From: Rudanella lutea DSM 19387
GTDB lineage: Bacteria; Bacteroidota; Bacteroidia; Cytophagales; Spirosomataceae
Length of the DNA: 64,000 bases
Direction: 5' to 3'
NCBI RefSeq assembly: GCF_000383955.1
Contig: NZ_KB913013.1
Location: 973,694 to 1,037,693 of the forward strand
A program made the translations under genes and the position numbers. This document shows positions 34,754 through 56,857 of this stretch, one piece after another (position 1 is the first letter of the stretch; each line of letters opens with the position of its first letter). The notes under the pieces are model-generated. The model had not been told where the DNA came from. It saw only the letters and a program-made list of their open reading frames with translations, and did no database searches.

Positions 34754-34855
34754 TCAGTACTGGACATTAGATGTTGGACATTAGGCGTTAGACCTCCATA
34801 CATAGAGGTAGCAAGTCTAAGGTCTAGTGTCTGAAGTCCGAATGTCCAGTACTGA
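34754..34855. repeat. heptad-built intergenic palindrome P1
   Basis: Outer arms TCAGTACTGGACATT (34754-34768) and its exact complement (34841-34855). Inside, the left arm reads in 7-nt words: GGACATT, AGATGTT, GGACATT, AGGCGTT, AGACCTC (34762-34796); the right arm has GTC every 7 nt at 34815, 34822, 34829 and 34836. The arms pair imperfectly along their whole length, with a small loop near 34797-34804. It lies between two minus-strand genes (HAD phosphatase and ALDH) in a 215-bp gap. Confidence 0.8.
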
Positions 34856-34873
34856 ATGTGCCTTTTACATTAT

Positions 34874-35572
34874 TCATTCACTTAGCAGTAGCGGCAGGCA
34901 ATCGCGCAGACTATCGAGCTGGAGGTACTGGATACCCGTATCGGGTGGGGTGACCTGCTCAATGTGCCAGGTGGTATGGTAGGGAATGTAGATGGCCTGC
35001 CCCCCCAAAGCCGCCACGGGCAAAATATCCGATTTGAGCGAGTTACCGATCATCAGAAACTCGGCCGGTTGCAACCCATACCGGTCCAATATTTTCTGAT
35101 AGGCGGCTTCGTTTTTTTCACTGACAATCTCCACATGACTGAAATAGGCCCCAATTCCTGAGCGAGCCAGCTTGCTTTCCTGATCCAGCAAATCACCCTT
35201 GGTCAGGAGCATCAGCGAATACTGGGGCGTAAGGGCATCCAGCACTTCTTCTACACCGTCGAGCAACTCAATCGGAAATCGCAGCAGTTTTTTTCCCTGA
35301 TCGATAATTTGCTGGATGGCCGCACCCGTCACCTGCCCTTCCGTCAGCTTGATGGCCACCTCAATCATGGAAAGCGTAAACCCTTTGGCTCCGTAGCCCA
35401 GCAGGGGTAGGTTTTCAATCTGCACCTGTCGCAGAGCCTCGTCGAGTTCGGTAGGCGTACCGTACTGGGCCAGAAACGCCTTGAGATCGGCTTCGGCCTG
35501 ATCGAAATGGGGCTGGTTGGCCCACAGCGTATCATCCGCGTCGAGGGCAATTAATTGGGGTTTGGTAATCAT
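34874..35572 (-). CDS. HAD-superfamily hydrolase
   Basis: 232 residues. HAD motif I LDADDTLW (Asp11 nucleophile, Asp13), motif II LLTKGD, a Lys in the segment after it, and motif IV MIGNSLKSDILPV. An alpha-helical cap lies between motifs I and II (about 20-95). Probable small-molecule phosphatase; the substrate is not predictable. Divergent from a second HAD gene, with 126 bp between the starts. Confidence 0.88.
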   Translation of the reverse strand: MITKPQLIALDADDTLWANQPHFDQAEADLKAFLAQYGTPTELDEALRQVQIENLPLLGYGAKGFTLSMIEVAIKLTEGQVTGAAIQQIIDQGKKLLRFPIELLDGVEEVLDALTPQYSLMLLTKGDLLDQESKLARSGIGAYFSHVEIVSEKNEAAYQKILDRYGLQPAEFLMIGNSLKSDILPVAALGGQAIYIPYHTTWHIEQVTPPDTGIQYLQLDSLRDCLPLLLSE

Positions 35573-35698
35573 TCGGGGTTGCTTGGCCCCAACGGGCCAC
35601 TGGTGTACGGTGCAAAGCTATACAACAACTACAGCCAACACGCCATATTGGGCAGGGCCTTCGCGATTTTCACCCGGTTTGCCTGTAACTTGTCCGTT

Positions 35699-36334
35699 AT
35701 GAAGTATCGACTCGTCATTTTCGATTTTGACGGCACCCTGGCCGATTCGTTCGCCTTGTTTTTGCGCACGTTCAACGACGTAGCGGGGCAATATGGCACC
35801 CGGCCGATTCTGGATACCGAACTGAATACCCTACGGACAATGGGAGCCCGGGGACTAATCCGCCATTTTGAGATTCCCCCGTGGAAGGTGCCTTTTATTG
35901 CCTACAGCGTTCGTCGGCGTATGGCTCGGTCTATTACCGACGTGCAGTTGTTCGAGGGCATTCCCGAACTATTGACACAACTGGCTCATGCGGGCGTTCG
36001 TCTGGCCATTGTCAGCTCCAACTCCGAAGCCAATATCCGGCGAGTGCTGGGGCCAGATTGTGCCGCAACCATCACCGATTACGTTTGCGGAACCGCCATT
36101 TTTGGCAAGGCGAAAGCATTCAGCAAGGTGGTTCGGCAAAGTGGTGTATCACCAGACCAAACCCTATGTGTGGGCGACGAGCTTCGCGATTGGGAAGCCG
36201 CGCTGGCTGTAGGCATCCCGTTTGCGGCCGTTGGCTGGGGTTACACTTATTTCGATGCCCTCCCTACCCTACCCGAGGGGCAGCTAATTAATCGAGTCGA
36301 GGCTATTGCGAGCGCAGTTTTAGCTCCAGCCTAA
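35699..36334 (+). CDS. HAD-superfamily hydrolase, phosphoglycolate-phosphatase-like
   Basis: 211 residues from the ATG at 35699. Motif I FDFDGTLADS (Asp9/Asp11), motif II IVSSNSE, Lys in FGKAKAF, motif IV CVGDELRDWEAA. The helical cap and overall size match phosphoglycolate phosphatase-like enzymes of the Gph type, though the substrate is not certain. The frame stays open upstream to 35555, but that sequence is part of the divergent promoter region. Followed by an intrinsic terminator. Confidence 0.88.
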   Translation: MKYRLVIFDFDGTLADSFALFLRTFNDVAGQYGTRPILDTELNTLRTMGARGLIRHFEIPPWKVPFIAYSVRRRMARSITDVQLFEGIPELLTQLAHAGVRLAIVSSNSEANIRRVLGPDCAATITDYVCGTAIFGKAKAFSKVVRQSGVSPDQTLCVGDELRDWEAALAVGIPFAAVGWGYTYFDALPTLPEGQLINRVEAIASAVLAPA

Positions 36335-36337
36335 GCA

Positions 36338-36370
36338 AAAAGCCCCGCTACGGAGGGTAGCGGGGCTTTT
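36338..36370 (+). terminator. intrinsic terminator between HAD and desaturase genes
   Basis: Stem AAAAGCCCCGCTA (36338-36350) with TAGCGGGGCTTTT (36358-36370), loop 7 nt, T tract at the end and an A tract on the left, so it can serve both convergent genes. Confidence 0.9.
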
Positions 36371-36391
36371 GGGTTCGGTACGCCGACCGGT

Positions 36392-37222
36392 TTATGCGTG
36401 CTCTTCGATGCGACGCTCGTGGCCGGTTTCAAATTCTTCCGACGCCCCTTTGGTCGGGCGCATCTTAATGATTTTCAGCTTCTCAAGGCCTTTGATAACG
36501 GGATACGTGGGGTCCATTTCGAACCACTTAGCTCCGAAGTTGGCCGAGTTGGGCCGCTTGTGGTGGTTATTCTGGAACAGCTCGCCCATCATCAGGAAAT
36601 CCAGCATGAGCGAGTTACGCGACTTATCGTGGTTGTCGAAGTTCTGGTAACCGTACTTGTGTCCGCTCCAGTTTACGATAGCACCGTGGATTGGTCCCAT
36701 CAGGAAGTGAATAGGCAGCAGGAAGAAAAAGGCCCAGTGCATATCCAGATACAGGAACGCGAAAATGTAGAACAGCGAGTAGGCAATACCCCAACCAGCC
36801 CGCGAAATCCACGAATCGCCCACCTTCTCGATCAGTGCCCACTCCGGGTAGTTGCGGTCAAACTGACGCTCCACCTTCTGGGTGCGGTGCAGCACAGCGT
36901 TGTAAATGTTTTTGGTTTTCCACATCATCGTCAGAAGGTTCTTCGTGTGATGGGGAGAGTGCGGGTCTTTGGGCGTGTCGCTGAATGCGTGGTGCATCCG
37001 GTGCAGCACGGCGTAAGCCCGCGGACTCAAATACGACGACCCTTGCGAGACGTACGTCAGGAAATAAAAGAAACGCTCCCAGAATTTGCTCATGGTGAAC
37101 ATCTTATGGGCAGCATAGCGGTGCAGAAAGAATGTCTGGCAAAACAGGGACAGATACCAATGCCCCACAAAAGCGACGATAGCAACCACAGTGGAATTGT
37201 TTTGAACGTTTATTTTAAACAA
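36392..37222 (-). CDS. acyl-CoA/fatty-acid desaturase
   Basis: 276 residues. Di-iron membrane enzyme that introduces a double bond into acyl chains. Three His boxes: HRYAAH (about 34-39), HRMHH (about 74-78) and NNHHKRP (about 215-221), with hydrophobic helices between them. The start is uncertain: the frame begins at a TTG at 37222, with a GTG at 37189 as alternative; the next ATG would remove the first His box. The first helix (VVAIVAFVGHWYLSLF) is shorter than in long desaturases. Supports membrane fluidity control by family knowledge. Confidence 0.85.
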   Translation of the reverse strand: MFKINVQNNSTVVAIVAFVGHWYLSLFCQTFFLHRYAAHKMFTMSKFWERFFYFLTYVSQGSSYLSPRAYAVLHRMHHAFSDTPKDPHSPHHTKNLLTMMWKTKNIYNAVLHRTQKVERQFDRNYPEWALIEKVGDSWISRAGWGIAYSLFYIFAFLYLDMHWAFFFLLPIHFLMGPIHGAIVNWSGHKYGYQNFDNHDKSRNSLMLDFLMMGELFQNNHHKRPNSANFGAKWFEMDPTYPVIKGLEKLKIIKMRPTKGASEEFETGHERRIEEHA

Positions 37223-37273
37223 AAATACGATTAAACCTTGAATATACCCGCTCTAATCGGTTTAAAGCCGGAT

Positions 37274-37942
37274 CTAATTGGACGTTGTCGCGTATTGCAA
37301 CAGATTGGCCCCCATCCGAAGTGCCTGTTGCCGAACGGGTTCAGGGTCGTTATAAACGCTCTGATCTTCCCAACCGTTGCCAAGGTCACACTCATAACTG
37401 TAAAAACAGACTAAACGTCCCTGATAGACCAAACCAAACCCTTGTGGGGCCTTACCATCATGCTCGTGAATCTTGGGCAAACCCGTCGAAAACTTGAACC
37501 GTTGGCTGTAAATGGGGTGATTGAAGGGTAACTCGACAAACGACAGCTCCGGAAAAACTTTTTTCATCTCACGCCGGATAAACTTGTCCATACCGTAATT
37601 ATCGTCGATGTGTAAAAAACCGCCCGACATCAGATACCGGCGCAGGTTCTGAGCCTCGGCCGTTGAAAACAGCACGTTGCCGTGCCCGGTGAGGTGCACA
37701 AATGGGTAGCTGAACAGGTCGGGGCTCCCTACCTCCACAATATCTTCTTCGGGAAAGATATTCATGCGCAGGTTCTGGTTGGCAAACTTGATCAGGTTTG
37801 GCAGCGAGGTTTTGTTGGCGTACCAGTCGCCCCCGCCGTTATACTTCAGTTTGGCAATTTTGTACGCATACTGCGCCTGAGCCGGGACAATGAAAAAGGC
37901 ACAATGCAGCATGAGTAAGGCTGGAAGCAGGATTCGTTTCAT
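37274..37942 (-). CDS. DUF4159 domain exported protein
   Basis: 222 residues with a signal peptide (to about 23, PAQAQ). The whole mature chain fits DUF4159: IAKLKYNGGGDWYANKTSL near the start, then FPEEDIVEVGSPDLFSYPFVHLTGHG, GGFLHIDDNYGMDKFIRREM and the C-terminal RQQALRMGANLLQYA. The fold resembles glutamine-amidotransferase-like domains without the catalytic triad, and is often found near MoxR/VWA clusters; such a pair lies 1.3-3.3 kb away on the same strand. Biochemical role unknown. Its start overlaps rsmE by 4 bp. Confidence 0.88.
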   Translation of the reverse strand: MKRILLPALLMLHCAFFIVPAQAQYAYKIAKLKYNGGGDWYANKTSLPNLIKFANQNLRMNIFPEEDIVEVGSPDLFSYPFVHLTGHGNVLFSTAEAQNLRRYLMSGGFLHIDDNYGMDKFIRREMKKVFPELSFVELPFNHPIYSQRFKFSTGLPKIHEHDGKAPQGFGLVYQGRLVCFYSYECDLGNGWEDQSVYNDPEPVRQQALRMGANLLQYATTSN

Positions 37943-38631
37943 GCGTTCAGTAAGTTTAGAATCTGACAGGCCGCGAGGGCTGCGGTTTCGGTACGAAGCC
38001 GGTTGTTGCCGAGAGTTACATTCTCAAAACCAGCCTGTTGGGCAATGATTAGCTCGGTGGGGGCAAAGTCTCCCTCCGGTCCGATTAACACCGTGTAGCT
38101 ACCGTTTATTGTGGCTTTTTTGAATAAATGTTCCGGCGGAGTGTTGACGGGCAGGTGGGCAATAAACCGTTGCCCCTCGGTGATGGTGGGCAGCAGCTTT
38201 TCGAGGGGCAGGGCCTCATCGAGCTGGGGCATCCAGCTTTGCAGCGACTGCTTCATGGCGGCCACGGCGATTTTTTCGAGCCGCTCCAGTTTGAGTACCC
38301 GCCGTTCGGAATGTTGCCCGAAGAAGAAACTGATTCGTTCGATACCCAGTTCAACGGCTTTCTCCACAAACCACTCGATCCGGTCGATGTTTTTGGTGGG
38401 TGCCACACAAATACGCACTGAAAAAGGACGGGCGGGTGTGTACTGTTCGTCGAGGACGCGAAAGGCGCACTGCCGGGCATCAGCTTTAGTGATTTGGGCG
38501 TCGAAGCGGGCGCCCCGCCCGTTGGTTACGGCAATGGAATCGCCCGCACCCAGCCGAAGGGTTTTAACGGCATGGCGGGAGTCGTCTTCGGTCAGTTGAG
38601 AAATGGAATCAGGCTGGTAAAAGAGATGCAC
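37939..38631 (-). CDS. rsmE: 16S rRNA (uracil1498-N3)-methyltransferase RsmE
   Basis: 230 residues from a GTG at 38631, chosen because the family normally begins with HLFYxP and that follows directly (VHLFYQPDS); a TTG at 38661 would add ten residues. SPOUT-class methyltransferase modifying U1498 of 16S rRNA. PUA-like N-terminal domain, then the knot motifs: IGPEGDFAPTE (about 185-195) and LGNNRLRTETAAL near the C-terminus. Coupled to the DUF4159 gene by a 4-bp overlap. Confidence 0.93.
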   Translation of the reverse strand: MHLFYQPDSISQLTEDDSRHAVKTLRLGAGDSIAVTNGRGARFDAQITKADARQCAFRVLDEQYTPARPFSVRICVAPTKNIDRIEWFVEKAVELGIERISFFFGQHSERRVLKLERLEKIAVAAMKQSLQSWMPQLDEALPLEKLLPTITEGQRFIAHLPVNTPPEHLFKKATINGSYTVLIGPEGDFAPTELIIAQQAGFENVTLGNNRLRTETAALAACQILNLLNA

Positions 38632-38777
38632 TTTGTACTGCTGGTTGGGCCTTTCGGGCAAGATAATGATTATTTTGGCTTAATTTGGAGTGACCGTCGG
38701 CCTCTTCTATGCCATAAGATAAATGCAATCTTAATCTACAGGGTTCCAATCTCTTTCATCCTACTTGACTTTACCCC

Positions 38778-39041
38778 ATGGCAACCAAAAAGAAACTTTC
38801 CGAAATGACATTAGATGAGCTGTATACTGAGGAACAACTTTTGAATAATACGTTCTTTGCCACAAGAAATTTGATTGGCAGTCTTTCCATTGTCGCCCTG
38901 ACCATTGCCCTGGCCTTCTATATCATGAAAGACTCGTTCAGCTACTTTTTTGCGGCCTTGATTCTCTGGTTAATCTATTCCGTTGCGAGCAAATTCATCT
39001 ACAGGAATCGACTTATCAACGAAATAAAGTCTCGCCAGTAG
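38778..39041 (+). CDS. small two-helix membrane protein
   Basis: 87 residues. Lys-rich start (MATKKKLSEMTLDELYTEEQ), then two hydrophobic helices (about 31-50 and 54-72) separated by a short polar turn, and a basic tail. Resembles the many small redox-independent membrane proteins of Bacteroidota; no family recognised. Divergent from rsmE, convergent with the VWA gene 17 bp away. Confidence 0.6.
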   Translation: MATKKKLSEMTLDELYTEEQLLNNTFFATRNLIGSLSIVALTIALAFYIMKDSFSYFFAALILWLIYSVASKFIYRNRLINEIKSRQ

Positions 39042-39058
39042 GAGGCCCAGAAACCACT

Positions 39059-40261
39059 CTACACATCAAACGTCACTTTCGGATTTTTCAGGCTTTTCAT
39101 GGCCCCGGTCAGGCCGTTGAGCGTAAGCGGAAACATCCGGTTGCCCGACCATTTCCGGATGATGTCGATGCTTTGCGTATACGACCAATACGCCGGAATC
39201 ATGGGGTTGAGCCACACTAAATGAGGGTACTGTTCCTTGAACCGATTGAGCCACACCAGGCCCGCTTCTTCGTTGTAATGCTCTACGCTACCCTTGGGAG
39301 CCGTAATCTCGTAGGGCGACATGCTGGCGTCGCCCACAAAAATGACTTTGTACTCTTTGTTATATTTGTGGAGCACCTCCCAGGTTGGAATACGGTCTTT
39401 CCGGCGCGAATTGTCTTTCCAGAGGGTTTCGTACACACAGTTATGAAAATACAGAAACTCCAAATGCTTAAACTGGTAGCGGGCCGCCGAAAATAACTGA
39501 TTGCAGAGGTCGATATGCTCGTCCATTGATCCGCCTACATCAAACAGCATCAGCACTTTCACCCGATTTTGGCGGGAAGGCTGCATCTGAATGTCGAGCA
39601 TACCTGCGTTGCGGCTTGTTCGGTCAATGGTTCCGTCGATGTCCAGTTCATTTTCGGCCCCTTCGCGGGTCAGAATCCGCAACCGGCGCAAGGCCATCTT
39701 GAGGTTTCGGGTATTCAGTTCAATATCGTCAGCGTAGTTTTTGTACGCCCGGTCTTCCCAAACTTTCAGCGCCCGCCCGCTCCCTTTGCCGGGGGCACCT
39801 TTGTCGGTTTTGAAGCCTTCGGGCGAATAGCCCCCTACCCCAAAGGGCGAAGTTCCGCCCGTTCCAATCCATTTGTTGCCTCCTTCGTGCCGCTCCTGCT
39901 GTTCGTCGAGCAACTTTCGAAAGCGCTCCCAGAGTGCATTGAGCCCCCCGGCAGCTTCCAGAGCCGCTTTTTCTTCGTCGCTCAGAGACCGCTGCATGGC
40001 ATCGCGGAGCCATTCGGGCGGAATATCAGGCAGGCCCTCGGCCCCGACCGACTCCCGACCCGTCACAAACAGACCAAACACCCGGTCGAACAGATCCAAG
40101 TGTTGCTCATGCTTAACCAGAGTCGTTTTACTCAGAAAGTAAAAATCGTCGATAGTTGGCTCGGCCACATCGCTCCGCAGGGCCTCAAGCAGCGTCAGGT
40201 ACTCTGGCAGCGTAACCGGCAGATGGTGTTGACGAAGCAGCAGAAAGAAGTCGAGAAACAT
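39059..40261 (-). CDS. CoxE-like VWA domain protein, MoxR partner
   Basis: 400 residues from ATG 40261; the longer open frame upstream runs through heptad repeat DNA and is not coding. N-terminal helical part (FFLLLRQHHLPVTLPEYLTLLEAL), then a Gly-rich linker (GGNKWIGTGGTSPFGVGGYSPEG), and a C-terminal VWA domain whose metal site reads DVGGSMDEH in place of the canonical DxSxS, as is usual for CoxE-like proteins. These work with MoxR AAA ATPases, remodelling or activating metal enzymes; the target here is unknown. Downstream of moxR on the same strand with only palindrome P2 between. Confidence 0.85.
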   Translation of the reverse strand: MFLDFFLLLRQHHLPVTLPEYLTLLEALRSDVAEPTIDDFYFLSKTTLVKHEQHLDLFDRVFGLFVTGRESVGAEGLPDIPPEWLRDAMQRSLSDEEKAALEAAGGLNALWERFRKLLDEQQERHEGGNKWIGTGGTSPFGVGGYSPEGFKTDKGAPGKGSGRALKVWEDRAYKNYADDIELNTRNLKMALRRLRILTREGAENELDIDGTIDRTSRNAGMLDIQMQPSRQNRVKVLMLFDVGGSMDEHIDLCNQLFSAARYQFKHLEFLYFHNCVYETLWKDNSRRKDRIPTWEVLHKYNKEYKVIFVGDASMSPYEITAPKGSVEHYNEEAGLVWLNRFKEQYPHLVWLNPMIPAYWSYTQSIDIIRKWSGNRMFPLTLNGLTGAMKSLKNPKVTFDV

Positions 40262-40263
40262 GG

Positions 40264-40421
40264 TAACAACGAACAACGAACAGTGAACAATCAACAACGA
40301 ACAGTGAACAACCAACAATGAACAACGAACAACCAACAGTGAGCAGTAAACAATAAGCAGTGAGCGTACAACACAACCTACTGATCACTATTCGTTGTTA
40401 ACTGTTGGTTGTTAATTGTCA
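40264..40421. repeat. heptad-built intergenic palindrome P2
   Basis: Left arm: fourteen consecutive 7-nt words (40264-40361) fitting N-A-R-C-A-R-Y, mainly GAACAAC, GAACAGT, CAACAAC and CAACAGT. Right arm: six consecutive words (40380-40421) of the complementary type R-Y-T-G-T-T-N, e.g. GTTGTTA, ACTGTTG. The right arm overlaps the MoxR stop codon (40419-40421), and the left arm ends 3 bp from the VWA start, so the element is the whole intercistronic gap. Confidence 0.9.
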
Positions 40422-41273
40422 ATACGGTCGGGTTCCCTTTCGTTTCAATGCCCCCAGCAAGTCAGAGTCCTGTTCATTTTTGAGCAGCGCCCCAAGGTAA
40501 GGCGGTAATTCATTGAGCGTGTCGAGGTCGGTGAGGTCGTCGTGCGTGACACCCGATGCCAGCAACAACCGCACCCAGTCGATCAGCTCACTTGTCGAGG
40601 GCTTTTTCTTGAGCGCTTTCACGTCGCGGATAGCGTAAAACACCGACAACGTTTTGGCTAGCAACTCCTGGGGCAAATCGGGGAAATGAACCGCCACAAT
40701 CTGCTCCATCGTTTCGCGATCGGGAAACCGGATATAGTGGAAAAAACACCGGCGCAGAAACGCATCGGGCAGCTCTTTCTCGTTGTTCGACGTGATAATC
40801 ACCACCGGACGGTGCCGGGCCGAAATGGTTCGTTGCAATTCGTAGCAGTAAAACTCCATCCGGTCGAGTTCCTGCAACAGATCGTTCGGAAATTCAATAT
40901 CGGCCTTATCAATCTCGTCGATCAGCAACACGGCCTGCTCTTCCGACTCGAAGGCCTCCCAGAGTTTTCCTTTGCGAATGTAGTTCGAGAGGTCATTGAT
41001 GCGGGCCGAATCGAGGCCCCGGTCGGCAAGTTGGGAGTCGCGCAGCCGCGAAACGGCATCGTACTCGTACAACCCCTGCTGGGCCGAGGTGGTCGATTTT
41101 ACGTGCCAGGTGTACAGGGGTTTCCCCAGCGAGCGGGCTACTTCGAACGCCAGCAGGGTTTTGCCGGTGCCGGGCTCCCCTTTGATCAGGAGAGGCTTTT
41201 GAAGCAGCACGGCCGCGTTAACGGCCGTGCTGAGTTCGCGCGTAGCGATGTATGAATCGGTTCCAGTGAACAT
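40419..41273 (-). CDS. MoxR-family AAA+ ATPase
   Basis: 284 residues. Walker A GEPGTGKT (32-39), Walker B VLLIDEIDKAD (about 115-125), sensor 1 VIITSNNEKELPDAFLRRCFF with arginine finger. The MoxR insert helices are present. Chaperone-like ATPase that acts with a VWA adaptor, encoded directly downstream. Its last codon, Tyr, is followed by a stop that is part of palindrome P2's right arm; its start codon abuts palindrome P6. Confidence 0.93.
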   Translation of the reverse strand: MFTGTDSYIATRELSTAVNAAVLLQKPLLIKGEPGTGKTLLAFEVARSLGKPLYTWHVKSTTSAQQGLYEYDAVSRLRDSQLADRGLDSARINDLSNYIRKGKLWEAFESEEQAVLLIDEIDKADIEFPNDLLQELDRMEFYCYELQRTISARHRPVVIITSNNEKELPDAFLRRCFFHYIRFPDRETMEQIVAVHFPDLPQELLAKTLSVFYAIRDVKALKKKPSTSELIDWVRLLLASGVTHDDLTDLDTLNELPPYLGALLKNEQDSDLLGALKRKGTRPY

Positions 41274-41282
41274 ATAACGTTC

Positions 41283-41363
41283 GTAGTTTTTGGCTCGTGG
41301 TTTATTGTACGTAATTACTTAATCCTCAGCAACCAAAAACAATAAACCAAAAACTAAAAACTC
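41283..41363. repeat. heptad-built intergenic palindrome P6
   Basis: Right arm in 7-nt words: AACCAAA, AACAATA, AACCAAA, AACTAAA, AACTCAA (41331-41365). Left arm (41283-41308) contains GGTTTATTGT and AGTTTTT, the complements of ACAATAAACC and AAAAACT on the right. Fills the gap between the MoxR start codon and the stop of the acidic protein gene. Confidence 0.75.
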
Positions 41364-41370
41364 AAAGCCT

Positions 41371-41931
41371 CTATTCTTCGCCGTCTTCGGAGAACGAGTA
41401 CAGCGTTGTGTCTAATTGCAGGGTGCCGCTATTGAATTTTTGAATAAACGCTTCGATCACCTCTTCGTTGATTTCTTCCACGTTGAGACACACGTCGAGC
41501 GCAATACCATAATCCGAATCCAGGTCGAGCTCTACATGCTCCTGCACTTTCACAGCCTCGGTTTCTTCCAGCTCTTCGATCAGCTCAGTCAGCGCGGTTT
41601 CGGCTTCTTCCTCGTCTTCAGGGCTGATTTTATAATTCGCCTTACGCTCCTCGGGGGGTACGTAGCTCGGAAACGACGTTTTGAGTTGCTCAACCGCCAT
41701 CTCGTACACCATGCTGCTATGATGCAGGCGCAACGTGTACACCAGGGCATCATAGATAACATCCTGGCCTTTGTAGGTACCCACAAACTGAATGTGCTCG
41801 CACTCGCCCGACTCCAGCATGTCCAGATCGGGATCTTCGATGTACACAAACGAGGTTTCACCTTCGCTGCACTCAGCACGCAGCTCTTCGATTTCTTTCG
41901 GGTCAAAGCCCGGATTCTGATTCGTTGCCAT
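41371..41931 (-). CDS. acidic hypothetical protein
   Basis: 186 residues with a very high Glu/Asp content, especially PEDEEEAETALTELIEELE (about 118-140). No signal or membrane helix. Predicted alpha/beta with an N-terminal GFDPKEIEELRAE helix. Found in the MoxR/VWA transcript, upstream of moxR, so it could be an accessory of that system; no family recognised. A gap of 4 bp separates it from the M28 peptidase gene. Confidence 0.7.
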   Translation of the reverse strand: MATNQNPGFDPKEIEELRAECSEGETSFVYIEDPDLDMLESGECEHIQFVGTYKGQDVIYDALVYTLRLHHSSMVYEMAVEQLKTSFPSYVPPEERKANYKISPEDEEEAETALTELIEELEETEAVKVQEHVELDLDSDYGIALDVCLNVEEINEEVIEAFIQKFNSGTLQLDTTLYSFSEDGEE

Positions 41932-41935
41932 ATAC

Positions 41936-43132: not shown

Positions 43133-43141
43133 CCAAAAAAT

Positions 43142-43176
43142 ACGGGTCCGGTGTTAATCAAAAACACCGGACCCGT
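43142..43176 (-). terminator. intrinsic terminator after glnN
   Basis: 14-bp perfect stem (43142-43155 with 43163-43176), 7-nt loop, followed on the minus strand by ATTTTTTGGG. It lies just after the GSIII stop. Confidence 0.9.
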
Positions 43177-43229
43177 TCAGAACTAATCATATCGGGCCGC
43201 AGAAATACTACAGCGGGCCGCTCCGTAGC

Positions 43230-45419: not shown

Positions 45420-45457
45420 AACAAGTCAGTGGCATTTATATGCGGTGAAAACAAAGC

Positions 45458-45486: not shown

Positions 45487-45501
45487 TGCAACTATACACA
45501 A

Positions 45502-45530: not shown

Positions 45531-45633
45531 GATTTTATGGGGTTGGTAATTGGATTCAACTGATTTACGACCGAAACGGGTTGTGATTACGTACCGCGAC
45601 CTGGGCGATTGTATAGAATCCTACCCCTACCCT

Positions 45634-46656: not shown

Positions 46657-47091
46657 GATGATAAACGATATAGATGTTAGGTTTTGTTGCGATTAAACGG
46701 TAGCGGCAAACCGTTGATTATCTGTTGGCAAATGTAATAGCCAACAAGATAATAATAAAGTCAACCGCAAATCAAACCCCCATTTTTATTGAAATTTGCA
46801 AAAAATTCATAATTATAATTCGTACTGTACAAAAAATAGACAATAAAATTCGGAAGCATATCCCATAAATACCAAACATAAGTTTGGACTATTCAGCAAA
46901 AACCTCTCTAAAATTTGCCAATCTGGAAACCTGTTTCTCCGAAATCATGACTATTTCTCTTCCAAACACCCAAAAACGTACACCTACCTTTTACTAACTC
47001 TGTACACCGCTCTTACAAATAGTGTAGCGTTGTTGGGCACGCATCGGCGTATTTTGTGGTTATCATCAACATCTGTTTCCGTAACTTAAAC
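46657..47091. other. 435-bp divergent spacer between GSII and sulfatase-fold gene
   Basis: AT-rich and non-coding. It holds the GSII promoter region, a plus-strand TAAGTTTG at 46879-46886 without a matching TTG, and a second possible promoter (TTG 47030-47032, 17 nt, TATTTTGT) before 47092. No repeat or small gene was seen. Confidence 0.6.
46723..46746 (-). promoter_or_regulatory. palindrome overlapping the -7 box of GSII
   Basis: TGTTGGC (46723-46729) and GCCAACA (46740-46746) form a 7-bp inverted repeat with a 10-bp spacer. The minus-strand TACATTTG (46729-46736), a perfect TAnnTTTG, sits inside it. The start would be about 70 nt before the GSII ATG. A dimeric repressor bound here would block RNA polymerase; which regulator is unknown. 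Confidence 0.5.
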
Positions 47092-48915: not shown

Positions 48916-48971
48916 GCAGGTGTGTGGGCGCTCACCGGAGCCGCAGAGACCGCCAATCCGACGTTTTTTTG

Positions 48972-48979
48972 TACTTTTG
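48972..48979 (+). promoter_or_regulatory. -7-type promoter element for mtaB
   Basis: TACTTTTG fits TAnnTTTG, 21 bp before the ATG at 49001. No TTG at -33 distance. Confidence 0.35.
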
Positions 48980-49000
48980 CAAGCCAATCGGCCGGAAATC

Positions 49001-50356: not shown

Positions 50357-50400
50357 TTCGAAGCCCCGCGTAGGTTCGTACCGATATAGCCTACCCAAAC

Positions 50401-50440
50401 ACAGCCGCCCCGACCAACACCGGGGCGGCTGTTTGTTTTT
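50401..50440 (+). terminator. intrinsic terminator after mtaB
   Basis: 12-bp stem ACAGCCGCCCCG / CGGGGCGGCTGT (50401-50412 with 50421-50432), 8-nt loop, then TTGTTTTT. Confidence 0.93.
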
Positions 50441-50583
50441 AGACTGGGGGCGTGTGCGTTTTCGCACAGACCGAGCGGTTACGCACCTCACCTTATAGCA
50501 GACACGAACACAACTATCTCACTATTAACCAATTAAGCAATGGCACACGATTCGCACCTACAGTATGCGAAACCCGACACTGT

Positions 50584-51837
50584 ATGGACCGCGCCCTTGC
50601 TCCCGAACAAATTACCCGCTCCCGCCGTAAAAGCTGGACCGTTGGCCTGCTGGCTTTAGCTGCTCTGGTCGGTGCAGCCGTGGGCCTTCGCTCCCTGCTG
50701 CACACATCGGTCGAAGCATCCCGAATCCGAACGGCCGTTGCCCAAACCGGGCCCGTAGAAAATACCCTCACCGCCACCGGCGAAATTATCCCGGCCTACG
50801 AACAAATCATGACCAGCCCCATCCGGGCGAGCATCCGACGGGTACTCCTAACGCCCGGTGCGCGGGTGCGGCCCGGTCAGGCCATTCTGGAATTAGACAA
50901 ATCGCTCACCCAGATCGAGTACGAAAAACTACAGGACCAACTGGCGCTCAAACAAAACAGCATTGAACAGTTGCGGATGAAGCTCGACAAGAACCTGTAC
51001 GATGCCGACATCTCGGACCAGATCAAGCTTCTAAACATCAATCGGTTGCGCGCCGAAGTCGAAGATGCCCGGCGCTTGCTCAAAGTGGGCGGCCGAACCC
51101 CCGAAGATGTGACCCGTGCCGAAAACGCCCTCCGCATTGCGCAGTTGGAGAAAAAACAACTCGAAAACGATCTGGCCTACAACCGTCGGTCGATGGGTGC
51201 CAGCCTGAAGGAATCCGAATTGCAGGCCCGCATCGAAGGCACCAACCTCAAGGTACTGGCCCAAAAGCTGCGGCAGGCCGAGATCCTGGCCGACCGGGCG
51301 GGGGTACTCACGTGGGTAAACGAAAACGTGGGCTCGGCTGTGAACGAGGGCGAAATGCTCGTGAAAGTGGCCGATTTGGGCAGCTTCCGGGTCGAGGCTT
51401 CCTGCTCAGACACCTACGCCGACCAGCTCCGGACGGGCCTGCCCGTGATTGTGCGCATCAACGAGGTGGATTTGCGGGGCCTGATTACCCAGATCAAGCC
51501 GTCGGTGCAAAACGGCACGGTGAAGTTTGCCGTGTCCCTGGACGATAACCGGCACGCATCGCTCCGGCCTAACCAGAAAGTTGAGGTGTTTGTGGTCACG
51601 AGCCGCAGCCCGCAGGCCATTCGGATAGCCAACGGCCCTGCGTTTAAAGGCAAGCGGAAACAGTTTGTGTTTGTGATGGGCACCGACAACATCGCCCACC
51701 GGCGCGAAGTCGAGATTGGCCTGACCAACTTCGACTGGGTCGAGATCAAAAGCGGGCTGCAACCCGGCGAACGGGTAATCCTGACCGATATGAGCGAGTA
51801 CGAGCACGTAGATCAGCTCACGATTGTGAACCAATGA
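50584..51837 (+). CDS. HlyD/MacA-type periplasmic adaptor subunit
   Basis: 417 residues from ATG 50584; the open frame upstream contains stop-rich-looking leader and no signal. One N-terminal transmembrane helix (WTVGLLALAALVGAAVG), then the barrel-sandwich hybrid (VENTLTATGEIIPAYEQ... and RPGQAILELDKS), a long coiled-coil hairpin (about 105-210), the lipoyl half LADRAGVLTWVNENVGSAV and the beta-barrel domain. It links an inner-membrane transporter to TolC. First gene of a five-gene transport operon with its own two-component regulator. Confidence 0.9.
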   Translation: MDRALAPEQITRSRRKSWTVGLLALAALVGAAVGLRSLLHTSVEASRIRTAVAQTGPVENTLTATGEIIPAYEQIMTSPIRASIRRVLLTPGARVRPGQAILELDKSLTQIEYEKLQDQLALKQNSIEQLRMKLDKNLYDADISDQIKLLNINRLRAEVEDARRLLKVGGRTPEDVTRAENALRIAQLEKKQLENDLAYNRRSMGASLKESELQARIEGTNLKVLAQKLRQAEILADRAGVLTWVNENVGSAVNEGEMLVKVADLGSFRVEASCSDTYADQLRTGLPVIVRINEVDLRGLITQIKPSVQNGTVKFAVSLDDNRHASLRPNQKVEVFVVTSRSPQAIRIANGPAFKGKRKQFVFVMGTDNIAHRREVEIGLTNFDWVEIKSGLQPGERVILTDMSEYEHVDQLTIVNQ

Positions 51838-51870
51838 GCCAGGGCCGTTTAGACTAGAATCAACCCATCC

Positions 51871-53346
51871 ATGAACGCACGAAATACATACTGTCTGACG
51901 GTTTGGCTGATGCTGCTTGCCACGATCTGGGCCAAGGCGCAACCGTTGCGGCTGACACTCGAAGAGGTGGTTCAGATGGCCCGCGAGCAATCCATTGCGG
52001 CCCGGCAGGCGGCTACCCTCCAGAAAACCAATTACTGGAAATACCGCTCATTTCTGGCCGATTACAAGCCTCAGTTGAGCCTCAACGGGTCGTTGCCGAG
52101 CTTTACCCGTTCGTTTATTCAGGTACAGCAACCCGACGGAACCATTGCGTTTCAGCCCGTTTCGAACAACAACTCCCTGCTGAATCTGGAACTGAGCCAG
52201 AATATTCCGCTCACGGGCGGGGCCATTTACGTGCAGCATCAGCTTCAGCGGTTCGACAATTTTATGGCCCGCAACACCCTATACAACGGCATTCCGTTTG
52301 CCATTGGCCTGAGTCAGCCCCTATTTCGGTTCAACCCCATGAAGTGGGAGCGCCGGATTGAGCCGCTCCGCTACGCAGAGAGTAACGGACAATATGTGGA
52401 GGCCCTCGAACAGGTGGCGCTCGATGCCACCGGGCTTTACTTCGATCTGCTGGTGGCGCAGGTGAACCTGCAAATTGCCGAGACCAACCGGGCCAACAAC
52501 GACACCCTGTTTACCATTGCCGGGCACAAGCTCGAACTGGGTAAAATCTCGCGCAACGATTTACTGCAACTCCAGCTGAGCGTGCTCAATGCCCGCAAAG
52601 ACCTGGCGTCGGCCCGGCAAACGGCTGAGGTAGCCTCGCTCAAGCTGCGGGCATTTCTGAACCTTCAGGGCAACGAGGCCCTGCGTTCGTTTGACCTCGC
52701 TATTCCGGCTCAGATCAGCACCTTTCCGGTCGATATTCAACAGGCATTGAACCAGGCGTTTGCCAACCGGTCAGATGCCATTGCGTTTGGGCGTCGGCTC
52801 CTCGAAGCCGAGCGGGACATTGAAAAAGCCCGGAAAGAAAACGGCCTGAATGCGGTGCTAAACGCCGATTTTGGCCTGACCAACCGGGGGGCGCGGCCCG
52901 TTGATGTGTACCAACGCCCGCAGGATCGGCAGTTTGTTGAGCTTCGGTTTACAATGCCCATCATGACGTGGGGACGGGCCAAAGCCCGCACCGAAACCGC
53001 CGAGGCCAACGGGCAACTGACCATTCAGACCGTAGAACAGGCTAAACGAACCTTCGAGCAACAGCTGTACACGCAGGTGACCCTGCTCGATATGCTACGC
53101 CAGCAGGTGAAACTGACCGCCGAAGCCGACCAGATTGCCCAAAATCGGTACCAGATCGCCCAGGAACGATTTAAACTCAGCGACCTGACCGTAACCGACC
53201 TCGGCATTGCCATTCAGGACAAAGACCGCGCCCGCCGGGATGCCATTTTGGCCCTCCGCGACTATTGGCAGTCGTACTACACGCTCCGACTGCTCACCTT
53301 GTATGATTTTGAACGTAACCAGAAAATAGAAGGAAAAAGAGAATGA
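51871..53346 (+). CDS. TolC-family outer-membrane efflux channel
   Basis: 491 residues. Signal peptide (to about 24, WAKAQP), then the two-fold repeated OEP pattern: LTLEEVVQMAREQSIAARQA at the start of the first half and helices with KLELGKISRNDLLQLQLSVLNARKDLASA, repeated as RFKLSDLTVTDLGIAIQDKDRARRDAILALRDYWQS (quoted in parts only). Forms the exit duct for the tripartite pump. The last codons and stop lie in the purine-rich arm of palindrome P5. Confidence 0.92.
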   Translation: MNARNTYCLTVWLMLLATIWAKAQPLRLTLEEVVQMAREQSIAARQAATLQKTNYWKYRSFLADYKPQLSLNGSLPSFTRSFIQVQQPDGTIAFQPVSNNNSLLNLELSQNIPLTGGAIYVQHQLQRFDNFMARNTLYNGIPFAIGLSQPLFRFNPMKWERRIEPLRYAESNGQYVEALEQVALDATGLYFDLLVAQVNLQIAETNRANNDTLFTIAGHKLELGKISRNDLLQLQLSVLNARKDLASARQTAEVASLKLRAFLNLQGNEALRSFDLAIPAQISTFPVDIQQALNQAFANRSDAIAFGRRLLEAERDIEKARKENGLNAVLNADFGLTNRGARPVDVYQRPQDRQFVELRFTMPIMTWGRAKARTETAEANGQLTIQTVEQAKRTFEQQLYTQVTLLDMLRQQVKLTAEADQIAQNRYQIAQERFKLSDLTVTDLGIAIQDKDRARRDAILALRDYWQSYYTLRLLTLYDFERNQKIEGKRE

Positions 53347-53462
53347 AAGGAGAAGAGAGGAAGGAGGAAAAGGACAAAGAATCTCTTACATCTTACTTTC
53401 TCTTACTCCTACTCTTCCCTTTCCTCCCCCTCCTCCTTTTTCCCCCTCTTCTCCTTTCCCCC
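53331..53462. repeat. purine/pyrimidine intergenic palindrome P5
   Basis: Left arm almost pure purine (53331-53380, e.g. GAAAGGAGAAGAGAGGAAGG), right arm almost pure pyrimidine (53383-53462, e.g. CCCTCCTCCTTTTTCCCCC), able to fold back imperfectly. CTTAC recurs at 7 nt (53385, 53392), but the 7-nt register is weaker than in P1-P4 and P6. Fills the gap between the TolC stop (inside the arm) and the ATPase start at 53470. Confidence 0.75.
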
Positions 53463-53469
53463 AACAATT

Positions 53470-54171
53470 ATGATTAACCTCCAGAACATCGAAAAAGTGT
53501 ACCGGACCAGCACCATCGAAACGCTGGCCCTGAACAACATCAATCTGCACATCCGGACGGGTGAATTCGTCTCGATCATGGGGCCAAGCGGCTGCGGCAA
53601 GTCGACGTTACTCAACCTCATGGGCCTGCTCGACGCCCCCAGTGCGGGCCGGGTCGAGATTGGTGGCGAGACCGTCACGCAGTACCGCGACAAAGAACTG
53701 GCCCGGCTTCGGAACCAGAAAATTGGGTTCATTTTCCAGAGCTTCCACCTGATCAACGATCTCTCGGTGCTCGACAACGTAGAGATTCCCCTGTTGTACA
53801 GAAAGGGCGACGCATCGGGGTCGTCGCGTCGGCAACTGGCGCGGGAAGCCCTCGAAAAAGTAGGCCTGAGCAACCGAATGAACCATTTCCCGAACCAGCT
53901 GTCGGGTGGGCAAAAACAGCGGGTTGCTATTGCGCGGGCCATCGTGGGCCAACCATCCATCATCCTGGCCGACGAACCCACCGGTAACCTCGACAGCGCG
54001 ATGGGCAACGAGATCATGTCGATTCTACAACAGCTCAACGCCGACGGGGCTACCATTGTGATGGTTACTCACGACGAAACAATGGCAAAAAAAACCCATC
54101 GGCTGGTCCGTTTGTTTGACGGGGCTATGGTGGGAGACTCCGTTTTAATGAGCGAAAGAGTGAATGAGTGA
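53470..54171 (+). CDS. MacB/LolD-type ABC transporter ATPase
   Basis: 233 residues. Walker [10 protein letters not shown] (about 37-45), Q-loop IFQSFHL, signature LSGGQKQR (about 141-148), Walker [13 protein letters not shown] and H-loop VTHDE. The LolD/MacB branch energises FtsX-type permeases, encoded next. The final codons (ERVNE and stop) are part of the left arm of palindrome P4. Confidence 0.95.
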
Positions 54172-54257
54172 ATGAGTGAAAAGCGGCTTGCAATAAGAGC
54201 GTTTGTTTATCTATCCGGTCACTGTCACTCATCGTTCATCACTCATAACTCATCGCT
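54151..54257. repeat. heptad-built intergenic palindrome P4
   Basis: Left arm: TGAATGAG repeated with an 8-nt step (54161-54180). Right arm: TCACTCA, TCGTTCA, TCACTCA, TAACTCA, TCGCTAA in an exact 7-nt step (54225-54259). The arms are complementary in vocabulary (GAGTGA/TCACTC). The left arm contains the ATPase stop codon and the right arm ends just before the permease start. Confidence 0.8.
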
Positions 54258-54260
54258 AAA

Positions 54261-55508
54261 ATGCTACTGAACTACATCAAAATCGCTTGGAAGGTGTTGC
54301 TGAGGCATCCGTTCTACACCTTCATTACCCTGTTTGGCATCAGCCTGACCCTGACGGTGCTCATGGTACTGACCTCGTTTCTGGACCACCTGTTTGGCAG
54401 CCATTACCCCGAAGTCAACCGCGACCGGTCGCTGTATATTCAGATTATGCTGCGGAGCGATTCGAGCCGTAACGCGCGGCAAACGAGCCCCATGTCCTTC
54501 CGGTTTCTGACCGAGCACGTACGGCCGCTTAAAACCCCGGAACGGGCCACCATTTTTTCGTTTTTCAACGCATCCAACGCCTACGTGGGTACGCGCAAGA
54601 TCAAGCTCAACACCTCCTATACCGATGCTGAGTTCTGGCGGGTCAACGAGTTTACGTTTCTGGAAGGCAAGCCCTACAACGAGCAAACTATCAGCAGTGG
54701 CGAGCGCGTAGCCGTTATCACCAACGACTTCAAGGAGCAGTACTTCCCCAACCCCGAGGAGTCGGCCGTGGGGAAAGACATCGACGTTGAAAACACCCGC
54801 TACCGGGTCATTGGGGTGGTGAAAGGGAGCCCCATCACCCGGTTATTCACCCATGCCGATGTGTATTTTCCGTACACGGCCCCCAAGAGCAATTATCAGC
54901 GCGAAAGTATGAACGGTCAGTACAACGCCATTGTGCTGGCCAAAGACAAAAGCGACCTGCCCGCCATACAGGCCGAGTTTCAGGAGCGGATCCGCCGACT
55001 GCCAGTGCCGGGCGTCGATGGCGATTTCAAATACGCCTTCATCGATGTTAAAAGTGAGACCTACGTCAACAACTTTCTGAGTATTATTCTGGACGGCGGG
55101 CCGGGCCTGAAAGCCGCCCTGATCGGTGTCGTCAGCTTTATCCTGTTCATGCTCATTGGCTTACCGGCCATCAATCTGGTCAACGTCAACATCAGCCGGA
55201 TTCTGGAGCGAGCCTCCGAAATCGGTATCCGGAAAGCTTTTGGGGCACCGGTACGCACGCTGCTATGGCAGTTTATCATCGAAAACATCTTCATCACGTT
55301 TATCGGCGGGGCCATTGCGCTGGTCTTGAGTTTCGGCATCATTCAGCTCATCAACCAAAGCGGCTGGATTGCCCACGCCGACCTGACCATCAACCTGAGT
55401 GTGTTTCTGATCAGCGTCTTGGTCTGTTTGCTCTTCGGATTTCTGTCGGGCGTGCTCCCGGCTCTGCGTATGTCGAAACTCAATATTGCCGACGCCTTAA
55501 AAGCCTAA
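54261..55508 (+). CDS. FtsX/MacB-type ABC permease, first subunit
   Basis: 415 residues. One N-terminal helix (FYTFITLFGISLTLTVLMVL), a large periplasmic MacB-PCD domain (about 45-270), then three C-terminal helices in the FtsX domain (LIGVVSFILFMLIGLPAINLVN, IIENIFITFIGGAIALVLSF, FLISVLVCLLFGFLSGVLPAL) with the family segment RASEIGIRKAFGAP. Type VII ABC fold that moves substrates or signals by mechanotransmission and feeds a TolC channel. Likely dimerises with the next gene product. Confidence 0.9.
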   Translation: MLLNYIKIAWKVLLRHPFYTFITLFGISLTLTVLMVLTSFLDHLFGSHYPEVNRDRSLYIQIMLRSDSSRNARQTSPMSFRFLTEHVRPLKTPERATIFSFFNASNAYVGTRKIKLNTSYTDAEFWRVNEFTFLEGKPYNEQTISSGERVAVITNDFKEQYFPNPEESAVGKDIDVENTRYRVIGVVKGSPITRLFTHADVYFPYTAPKSNYQRESMNGQYNAIVLAKDKSDLPAIQAEFQERIRRLPVPGVDGDFKYAFIDVKSETYVNNFLSIILDGGPGLKAALIGVVSFILFMLIGLPAINLVNVNISRILERASEIGIRKAFGAPVRTLLWQFIIENIFITFIGGAIALVLSFGIIQLINQSGWIAHADLTINLSVFLISVLVCLLFGFLSGVLPALRMSKLNIADALKA

Positions 55509-55512
55509 ACCC

Positions 55513-56676
55513 ATGATACGCCACCTTTTTAAACTTATCTGGAACAAGAAAAAAGCCCATACGCTGCTCATCATCGAGATTTGGGCGTCGTTTCTGGTCC
55601 TGTTCGGTCTGTCGTCGCTGATTGTTTTCAACGTGTCGAATTACAATCAGCCGCTTGGTTTCGCCTATGAAAATGTCTGGGCCATCGACCTCCGAAACAA
55701 TCAGGACACAGTAGCCGTGACGGGCAAAACACAGGCGATTATGCAACGTATACGCAGCTACCCGGAGGTTCAGTCGGCCTCACGCATGAGCTCGAACTAC
55801 CCCTTTTCGGCCAATACGATGAACAACAACGTGACGCACGACAAAGCCACTACCCTGGCCTATTTCTTTGTCACGGATGGCGATTTTGCCAAAACACTCC
55901 AGATGCCCCTAACGGCCGGGCGTTGGTACACCCCCGCCGATAGCGTAGGTAAGTTCCGGCCTGCAGTAATCAATCAACTGGCTAAAGACGAACTGTTTGG
56001 CGACGAAGACCCGCTGGGCAAGGTCATCACGAGTGGAGACGGGCGGTATAAAGTGGTGGGCGTCGTGAACACGTTTAAATCGAAAGGTGAGTTTCAGGGT
56101 GACAAACCGACTATTTTTGAGCAGTTGAACGAAAATACCCCCTGGGACAAGACGGTGCTCATCCGGATAAAGCCGGGTACCGATGCCGTATTCGAGGCTA
56201 AACTCGTCAAAGATATTACGTCGATGGCACCTGAGTGGGGCGCCGAAATTACGTACCTCACCGACTCCCGGCAGAACCAGCACAATCTGGCCCTGGTACC
56301 CGTGACGATCTTCCTGATTGTGTGTGGCTTTTTGCTCATCAATGTAGCGCTGGGCTTATTTGGCATTCTGAACGTGAGCATCGCCAAACGCCGGGGCGAA
56401 ATTGGACTACGCCGGGCACTGGGGGCCACTGAATCGGGCATTTCGTGGCATTTCGTGGGCGAAATGTGGGTACTTGCTACTTTTGCTGTCGTACTGGGTT
56501 TGGTATTGGCCGGGCAGTTTCCGCTCATGAACGTATTCGATCTCGACACGGGTGTTTACCTCAAGGCCATTCTGATTTCGGTGGTGGTCGTGTACGCGAT
56601 TGTTACACTCTGCGCCGTGTATCCGAGTCGGCAGGCAGCTACCGTGCAACCAGCCGTCGCCCTGCACGAAGAATAA
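55513..56676 (+). CDS. FtsX/MacB-type ABC permease, second subunit
   Basis: 387 residues, same architecture as its neighbour: N-terminal helix (LLIIEIWASFLVLFGLSSLIVF), MacB-PCD domain (about 50-260), and FtsX helices with SIAKRRGEIGLRRALGAT. Only 4 bp follow the first permease stop. Two non-identical permeases imply a heterodimer. No palindrome lies between the two permease genes. Confidence 0.9.
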   Translation: MIRHLFKLIWNKKKAHTLLIIEIWASFLVLFGLSSLIVFNVSNYNQPLGFAYENVWAIDLRNNQDTVAVTGKTQAIMQRIRSYPEVQSASRMSSNYPFSANTMNNNVTHDKATTLAYFFVTDGDFAKTLQMPLTAGRWYTPADSVGKFRPAVINQLAKDELFGDEDPLGKVITSGDGRYKVVGVVNTFKSKGEFQGDKPTIFEQLNENTPWDKTVLIRIKPGTDAVFEAKLVKDITSMAPEWGAEITYLTDSRQNQHNLALVPVTIFLIVCGFLLINVALGLFGILNVSIAKRRGEIGLRRALGATESGISWHFVGEMWVLATFAVVLGLVLAGQFPLMNVFDLDTGVYLKAILISVVVVYAIVTLCAVYPSRQAATVQPAVALHEE

Positions 56677-56677
56677 A

Positions 56678-56857
56678 AGACAACGAACAACCAACGGTGA
56701 ACAACGATCAACTGACAGTGAACAACGAACAACCAACAGTGAACAACCAACAGTGGGATAACTGAAAACTGTCAGTTGCCATTTATAACTGCGTATTGCT
56801 CATTGTTCGTTGATCGTTGGTAACTGTTCACTGTTAATTGTTCGTTGATCACTACTG
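56678..56857. repeat. heptad-built intergenic palindrome P3
   Basis: Left arm: eleven in-phase 7-nt words (56678-56754), e.g. GAACAAC, CAACGGT, GATCAAC, CAACAGT. Right arm: nine in-phase words (56788-56850), e.g. ATTGTTC, GTTGATC, ACTGTTC, ACTGTTA. Left and right can pair along most of their length (e.g. CAACGAACAA with TTGTTCGTTG). The same word set as P2, 16 kb away. Fills the gap from the permease stop to the regulator start. Confidence 0.9.

Follow-up and report, generated by a model that had tools for sequence, protein, structure and literature searches.

Intergenic repeats built from heptanucleotide words have been described in several bacterial groups. In cyanobacteria, the short tandemly repeated repetitive sequences (STRR) are usually made of 7-bp repeats, lie between genes and can form hairpins. 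According to the sections of the source drawn on here, their function is not known, and a role in transcript stability or translational coupling has been suggested (PMC2670836). Xanthomonas carries GGGAATC heptamers; convergent inverted pairs of them number 70 in one genome and 75 in another, and the type is usually kept from one to the other. Nostoc has GGGGATT repeats with few inverted pairs. In both cases the repeat is a single G-rich word, for which quadruplexes were proposed (cited parts of PMC4692102). TAACTGA repeats, which are also intergenic 7-mers, occur in Beggiatoaceae, Cyanobacteria and five Bacteroidetes. As far as the excerpted text of PMC4679880 goes, they are direct repeats located mostly before start codons (the main genome has 169 direct sets beside a single indirect repeat), and the binding of a Csp- or S1-like protein was proposed. 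Here we describe six intergenic palindromes, P1 to P6, in a window of 64,000 nucleotides from Rudanella lutea DSM 19387 (Bacteroidota). They are real, they are part of a large genome-wide class and they include more than one kind of object. We tentatively favour reading P2 to P6 as palindromic word arrays at gene 3' ends that are maintained mainly by DNA-level copying, with confidence that falls somewhat short of even. P1 is a separate kind of thing: a transposed element like the miniature inverted-repeat transposable elements (MITEs).

In the portions of the papers used, the closest known kinds are the cyanobacterial 7-bp repeat hairpins and the paired heptamers of Xanthomonas. P1, P2, P3 and P6 consist of tandem degenerate 7-nt words, like the STRR of filamentous cyanobacteria, and other vocabularies (sets of related words) step by 8 nt. 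Unlike STRR as described, the arrays have a Bacteroidota host, many vocabularies in one genome, a 7- or 8-nt step and a fixed order of the two arms; swaps of vocabulary at orthologous gaps and a wobble test that speaks against RNA selection also set them apart. The GGGAATC and GGGGATT repeats are likewise intergenic heptamers, but most vocabularies of the window's genome are not G-run words. With TAACTGA the arrays share the intergenic 7-mers, and TAACTGA differs by its direct, mostly pre-start arrangement. Repetitive extragenic palindromic sequences (REP) and REPINs are also interspersed extragenic palindromes, and Y1 transposase genes are present in this genome; however, the palindromes beside three of its four Y1 genes have another sequence. 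P1 resembles MITEs in its inverted ends, its length of about 100 bp and its flanking duplications, although the search turned up no autonomous element sharing its ends. In the open-licence literature searched, as far as its accessible text goes, we found no description of multi-vocabulary heptad palindromes or of such swaps in Bacteroidota.

The window is C1:973694-1037693 of the R. lutea genome (G000, 6.55 Mb). The genus sample consists of four Rudanella genomes, including this one. The sister species is Rudanella paleaurantiibacter (G001), which differs from R. lutea by 0.098 in coding sequence and 0.287 at 4-fold sites, and a third genome (G002) was also compared. Gap classes rest on gene boundaries from our own gene caller. 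Searches for copies scored 40 candidates per genome where more were found. The palindromes are listed below in window coordinates.

34754..34855, P1: 102-bp MITE-like element with ends TCAGTACTGG...CCAGTACTGA and inner heptads GGACATT/AGACGTT.
34659-34873, P1 gap: flanked by two minus-strand genes; P1 fills 102 of its 215 bp.
40264..40421, P2: AACAAC/AACAGTG heptad array palindrome; it takes in the stop codon of the minus-strand gene 40419-41273.
41283..41363, P6: heptad palindrome of GTTTAC/GGTTTAT type, with the minus-strand genes 40419-41273 and 41371-41931 on either side.
53331..53462, P5: purine arm facing a pyrimidine arm; it takes in the stop of gene 51871-53346.
54151..54257, P4: left arm GAGTGAAT (8-nt), right arm TCACTCA (7-nt); it takes in the stop of the ABC ATPase gene 53470-54171.
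56678..56857, P3: AACAAC/AACAGTG heptad array palindrome, flanked by the permease gene 55513-56676 and gene 56868-58241.

A preliminary description of this DNA had placed the six palindromes between co-directional genes, and all were found there, at the positions it gave. It was also right that five of them fill nearly the whole gap (the exception is P1) and that three, namely P2, P4 and P5, contain the upstream stop codon. In the autocorrelation against dinucleotide shuffles, its 7-nt step is borne out for P1, P2, P3 and P6, which peak at 7/14/21 nt. The z value is 4.4 at lag 7 for P1, 9.1 at lag 7 and 9.7 at lag 21 for P2 (9.1-9.7 over lags 7/14/21), 9.2 at lag 7 for P3, and 5.2 at lag 7 and 4.9 at lag 14 for P6. 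P4 has no lag-7 peak (z 2.1 at lag 7, 4.2 at lag 4), and its arms, judged by eye, differ in step, which is 8 on the left and 7 on the right. P5 shows no 7-nt period by autocorrelation; its top lags are 16, 18 and 6. Folding is stronger than in shuffles for P1 (z -9.5), P2 (-3.3), P3 (-6.3), P4 (-4.1) and P6 (-5.2), but P5 folds no better than its own dinucleotide shuffles (z -1.1). The inverted repeat of P5 is nevertheless out of the ordinary: its score is 15.5, and a score of 12 was reached in 1 of 250 shuffled gaps (one mononucleotide shuffle each).

Across the three genomes, 464 kb contain 38 long inverted repeats, compared with 0 in block-shuffled sequence. The thresholds of the detector miss P1, P4 and P6, so the long-stem counts are lower bounds. 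In 404 kb of the R. lutea genome, a stem of at least 18 bp is present in 31/172 co-directional, 21/35 convergent and 2/43 divergent gaps, and the shuffled control gave 1, 0 and 0, respectively. Many of the convergent matches resemble ordinary bidirectional terminators. At lags 7/14/21, the self-match of the pooled arms of the 54 stems is 0.400/0.406/0.388, while shuffled arms give about 0.295, and the enrichment of the 7-nt period over shuffled controls was thus borne out. Taken singly, 13 stems have their best period at 7, 4 at 8 and 4 at 4. The step is 7 or 8 depending on the vocabulary, which corrects the earlier 7-only claim. The numbers leave hardly any room for an effect of chance or composition, which the folding of P5 would suit and which is refuted for the class by the excess of long stems and by the prominent lags 7, 14 and 21.

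Under a strict definition (a stem plus a 7- or 8-nt period), there are 49 arrays in 784 kb, which extrapolates to about 400 per genome. They start a median of 1 nt past the upstream stop codon and end 15 nt ahead of the next start (27 co-directional arrays, two species). With both species pooled, 27 arrays are in co-directional gaps, 11 in convergent gaps, 1 in a divergent gap and 3 in called coding sequence. The pairing of the arms ranges from 69% to 100% (median 84%, n=67).

The comparison with the sister species shows that the gaps are mostly related and that the words inside them can be exchanged. In the P2 gap, the AACAAC words of the window correspond to GCAGTAG words in R. paleaurantiibacter and to a GAGACGCAA palindrome in G002. 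The P6 gap keeps its own vocabulary in R. paleaurantiibacter and has the GCAGTAG vocabulary in G002. The P4 gap has a GTAATGC vocabulary in R. paleaurantiibacter, where P5 keeps its purine/pyrimidine type. The flanks of the P1, P3, P4 and P5 gaps were not found in G002.

Between R. lutea and R. paleaurantiibacter, 10/43 co-directional array gaps were swapped, by hand classification. Region 1 has 19 array gaps (P1 included) of 123 co-directional gaps. Five of them are swapped, and in one an arm of the array was lost; hand classification of its co-directional gaps revealed no gain in an array-free gap and no complete loss. The words flagged 24 rows in this region, and those at 769508, 868771, 1041926, 1060886 and 1081787 were dropped by hand for weak stems or chance words. 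C1:966662 was first flagged as empty in one species and reclassified by eye as a swap. The gaps at 829337, 854511 and 934250 keep like words in both species and were not counted; with them, region 1 would have 5 swaps of 22. The flagged gaps at 784938 and 849768 resemble ordinary hairpins. Region 2 has 24 array gaps of 185 co-directional gaps, 18 with the same vocabulary and 5 with swaps. Also in region 2, the array at C1:2605497 has no counterpart in R. paleaurantiibacter, where the end of the upstream gene differs too. At C1:2639597 and C1:2876692, an array lies directly past the stop codon in R. paleaurantiibacter and is absent from R. lutea. Presence or absence in array-free gaps amounts to 3 cases, one of them ambiguous, without the P1-type gain at 2790601, which was not counted among the turnover events. 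Six of the 10 swaps end in a different array; the other 4 (C1:966662, 2613414, 2684927, 2775330) end in a non-heptad palindrome. Convergent gaps were also swapped (C1:817415, 2627979, 2632430). For C1:817415, the ortholog in R. paleaurantiibacter (L123:8747-8829) is a near-perfect AATG-type palindrome replacing an older GTTTTTGG palindrome, of which one arm seems to survive beside it.

The new words match other loci clearly in two cases. For the R. paleaurantiibacter P2 array, a GCAGTAG array at another locus gives a score of 87, whereas its own ortholog gives 31. The array at C1:760975 reaches 101 with a GCAGTAG array from another locus; its own-locus score of 94 stems from the flank outside the array. 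Drift of the words in place was tried as the cause of the swaps and rejected, with the orthologous array ranking 4 to 24 of about 70 at four region-1 swaps (P2 4, 966662 5, P4 16, 939671 24); the rank of 2 at 760975 is due to the conserved flank beyond the array. At P4 and C1:966662, none of the sampled arrays gave a high score (best 27 and 22), which weakens the case against drift there and, as no source of the words was seen, also counts against copying between loci. The length of an arm can change by one unit: at C1:965171, a single arm gained 7 nt while the other did not (R. lutea against R. paleaurantiibacter).

At least six array vocabularies coexist in one genome. P2 has at least 64 local matches in its own genome (40 of 90 candidates scored). 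The P3 sequence is matched in 10/101 genomes of the family; these include all four Rudanella, which have the highest numbers of matches. The ABC-transporter operon that holds P5, P4 and P3 was compared in the best 80 of 104 relatives, and 115/304 orthologous gaps are palindromic. Of these, 84 have a well-defined period between 5 and 9 nt, with a step of 8 in 46, of 7 in 28 and of 5 or 9 in 10. The words vary from genus to genus: Dyadobacter has GACCGCC, for instance, while Fibrella and Fibrivirga have TTGGGGC and Spirosoma has ATAATGG.

The two arms of an array share their vocabulary and tend to share the order of their words. Their mean score is 21-28, compared with 16-19 when the words are shuffled and 6-7 when the letters are shuffled. 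The word shuffle is exceeded (p < 0.05) in 23/64 arrays, with the arms taken by best alignment, which favours likeness. The order of the arms is fixed: the same word comes first for each vocabulary in 113/115 family calls, at unlinked loci and in other genera, and the two exceptions do not resemble arrays. The words were picked after the arms had been seen, and the 30 GAGTGAA cases from other genera include orthologous gaps, which makes this count partly dependent. The supply of stop codons was considered as the cause of the polarity and discarded, as the purine and GTTTAC words do not fit (judged from the words, without a count).

If pairing were selected in RNA, G.U pairs would be tolerated above A.C on the transcribed strand. 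The sense strand of 100 co-directional arrays has 164 G.T and 174 A.C mismatches (p 0.62). Conversely, 125 canonical terminators, used as a positive control, have 69 G.T and 25 A.C (p 6e-6), and arrays and terminators differ in this bias (Fisher p 2e-5). These counts take orthologous loci more than once. A broader first count in co-directional gaps agrees (220 vs 257). The G.U excess that marks selected RNA hairpins is thus not seen in the arrays, unlike in terminators, and selection on RNA pairing is not supported.

We also followed the Watson-Crick pairs of the stems from R. lutea to R. paleaurantiibacter, in gaps with an identity of at least 0.66. Co-directional stems have 437 unchanged pairs, 97 single changes (34 to G.T, 25 to A.C), 15 compensatory changes and 7 non-restoring double changes. 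In convergent stems, the numbers are 182 unchanged, 24 single, 10 compensatory and 3 non-restoring double. Compensatory pairing in sister species, a check proposed in the preliminary description, is present and weak: there are 15 such cases beside the 97 single changes. As a group, the palindromic gaps diverge by 0.142, against 0.126 in other co-directional gaps.

The shared vocabulary, the partly shared word order, the symmetric mismatches, the difference of one unit and the exchange of whole palindromes fit DNA-level copying with turnover. In such a process, arms would gain and lose 7- or 8-nt units, presumably by slippage, and one 7-nt difference was seen. The second arm would be an inverted copy of the first, presumably made by fold-back template switching or arm-to-arm conversion. 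Now and then, the palindrome of a gap gives way to another vocabulary, as the replacements show. The incoming words would come from other loci, which is clear at P2 and C1:760975 and presumed for the remaining swaps. Ectopic recombination or re-insertion may be the route, and the enzymes involved are likewise putative. Arrays would be tolerated from the stop codon to the next start, and hardly in divergent, promoter-bearing gaps.

Several observations weigh against copying as the main cause, and some of them suit RNA hairpins at gene 3' ends, serving in termination, end protection or unequal operon expression, where the hairpin is selected and its sequence is free. We consider this explanation unlikely, although it deserves attention. 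It would account for the placement between the stop codon and the next start and for a palindrome that persists at its gap despite the swaps. Turnover is clustered in this way: 10/13 events are in array gaps, which are 43 of 256 co-directional gaps of at least 40 bp (hypergeometric p 1.3e-6, or 2e-7 with 308 gaps; hand-classified). This clustering also fits selection for a palindrome there, and uneven tolerance of gaps to insertion could yield it too. Pair-restoring double changes (15) outnumber the non-restoring ones (7). Three array gaps, at C1:2750582, 2755565 and 2767495, are identical between the sister species over 132, 350 and 81 bp, with flanking 4-fold divergence of 0.07-0.22, and those at C1:757631 and 771431 diverge by 0.01-0.02 against 0.22-0.29. 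For comparison, an identity of 0.97 is reached by 4/65 co-directional gaps of at least 80 bp without a strong stem. Arrays and canonical terminators (a G+C-rich stem, then a T run) also exclude each other, with terminators in 1/40 co-directional array gaps vs 57/276 others (p 0.004) and in 0/8 convergent array gaps vs 30/57 others (p 0.006). The arrays themselves are accordingly not intrinsic terminators by these counts; however, they fill their gaps, and the lack of terminators may reflect the lack of room. Against the RNA hairpins stand the lack of a G.U excess, which the terminators of the positive control do have, and the ratio of 97 single to 15 compensatory changes, compared with 24 to 10 in convergent gaps, where terminators are many. 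The single changes toward G.T and A.C (34 and 25) and the divergence of palindromic gaps, similar to that of others, are on the same side. The preliminary description had left open whether structure is selected or a copying process maintains it. Vocabulary replacement, words matching other loci at P2 and C1:760975 and symmetric mismatches favour copying over RNA selection. Its idea of mRNA processing or stability hairpins is not supported by the wobble test and is less likely, although the place at gene 3' ends, the avoidance of terminators and a few strongly conserved arrays still speak for it.

Another explanation is that all the families are small MITE- or REP-like palindromes moved whole by transposases, with heptads as a mode of decay of the arms. 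We regard it as improbable. P1 is exactly such an element, and the arm order, fixed across loci and genera, does not follow from symmetric copying. The P2 palindrome of R. paleaurantiibacter (GCAGTAG) can be aligned with other copies from end to end, through the loop, at 89% identity in G002, and this family would thereby resemble a mobile element in behaviour. The arrays found only in R. paleaurantiibacter directly after the stop codon (C1:2639597, C1:2876692) suit movement as well. On the other hand, end duplications of at least 7 bp are present in 0/65 arrays of six vocabularies and in 3/7 members of the P1 family, a weaker test for arrays, whose ends are less sharp. Among the 40 candidates scored per genome, no near-identical copies of at least 60 bp turned up: the best relatives of the R. 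paleaurantiibacter AATG array reach 81% in its own genome and 82% in R. lutea, and those of the GAGTGAA array 79% in R. lutea, against 93% for P1. Many GAGTGAA matches end at the arms, and the loops are mostly not shared. Gains in array-free gaps are few (3, one ambiguous), and none of the four Y1_Tnp genes of the genome, which are of the RAYT fold family, is directly flanked by a heptad array, the arrangement that marks a REP/RAYT system; mobilisation of the arrays by REP/RAYT was rejected for this reason. It is very improbable that the words are binding sites of a protein whose footprint spans 7 or 8 nt, such as a Csp- or S1-like one, with incidental pairing. The degenerate words with a constant core would agree with it, and there is the precedent proposed in the part of PMC4679880 used here, but at least six array vocabularies are present in one genome, and the likeness of complementary arms tends to extend from their vocabulary to the order of the words.

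A wider form of the copying reading, in which gene 3' ends of Spirosomataceae are standing palindrome sites where cellular copying writes inverted arrays of 7- or 8-nt words, swaps their vocabulary between loci and keeps the arm order, is rather doubtful. If true, the site would persist while its text changes, as an intergenic element that renews itself in the manner of a satellite and differs from MITEs, REPs and terminators. If copying itself is right, bacteria would have a process that makes long inverted repeats and remodels the ends of genes and their stop codons. The consulted passages on cyanobacterial intergenic heptamer hairpins record no agreement on function or mechanism. Here such objects are dense in Bacteroidota, with many vocabularies side by side, and their turnover was caught through a sister genome. 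The wobble test with a terminator control tells an RNA-selected hairpin from a DNA-copied palindrome by sequence alone, and it is usable for any such family.

The P1 family has at least 40 places in the R. lutea genome, P1 included (40 of 78 candidates scored). The other copies are 79-93% identical to P1, mostly over the full length. A word of at least 7 bp is common to both flanks in 18/30 fetched copies, compared with 15/870 mismatched flank pairs, and these duplications of 7-11 bp are as expected for the target sites of a MITE. Among the same 30 copies, 19 start exactly with TCAGTACTGG, 12 end with CCAGTACTGA and 10 have both. With up to 2 mismatches, the start is found in 29/30 and the end in 30/30, so terminal inverted repeats are present. 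The search for an autonomous insertion sequence with the same ends failed: among the 65 end matches (at most 1 mismatch), none form an inward-facing pair at a distance of 0.7-3 kb. At C1:4761855/4765958, a pair of P1 ends is separated by 4.1 kb. P1 is conserved at its gap in R. paleaurantiibacter. In that species, the P3 palindrome (AACAAC) has a P1-type copy in its loop, with GATAACTGCTT on either side, and two more P1-type copies (C1:2782678, C1:2790601) are absent from R. lutea. The family copy L173 in R. lutea has an additional internal unit that resembles a 14-bp tandem step.

Three of the four Y1 genes adjoin other palindromes, of different sequence and not 7-periodic. They are at L185, L186 and L188 (C1:4.58, 4.13 and 3.48 Mb), beside GTGCCGTAGGTACGCAACC, GAACTGCAAACCCCTACGGGG and GCTTCGCTGGGCCGATAGGCC, respectively, and are likely a separate REP system. 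The Y1 gene at L187 has a purine palindrome at a distance of about 900 bp. The motif GCTGACGC/GCGTCAGC recurs in loops of differing vocabularies, for example in the P2 gap of R. paleaurantiibacter, the P6 gap of G002 and L025. The motif occurs 27 times in 404 kb and 5 times in 57 kb of intergenic DNA, and it was dismissed as a general feature. Around C1:2749235-2759248, the 4-fold divergence of several genes is unusually low as well. Two contigs, labelled Flavobacterium sp. SUN052 (L029) and Cellulophaga sp. BC115SP (L073), carry the operon permease at 68% and 55% identity; they stand among Spirosomataceae-like matches, and by this resemblance their labels may be wrong. Finally, at C1:778286, R. 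lutea has a 101-bp insertion that is absent from R. paleaurantiibacter, with inverted ends AACGTGA..TCACGTT and a border repeat of 4-5 bp, apparently another MITE family.

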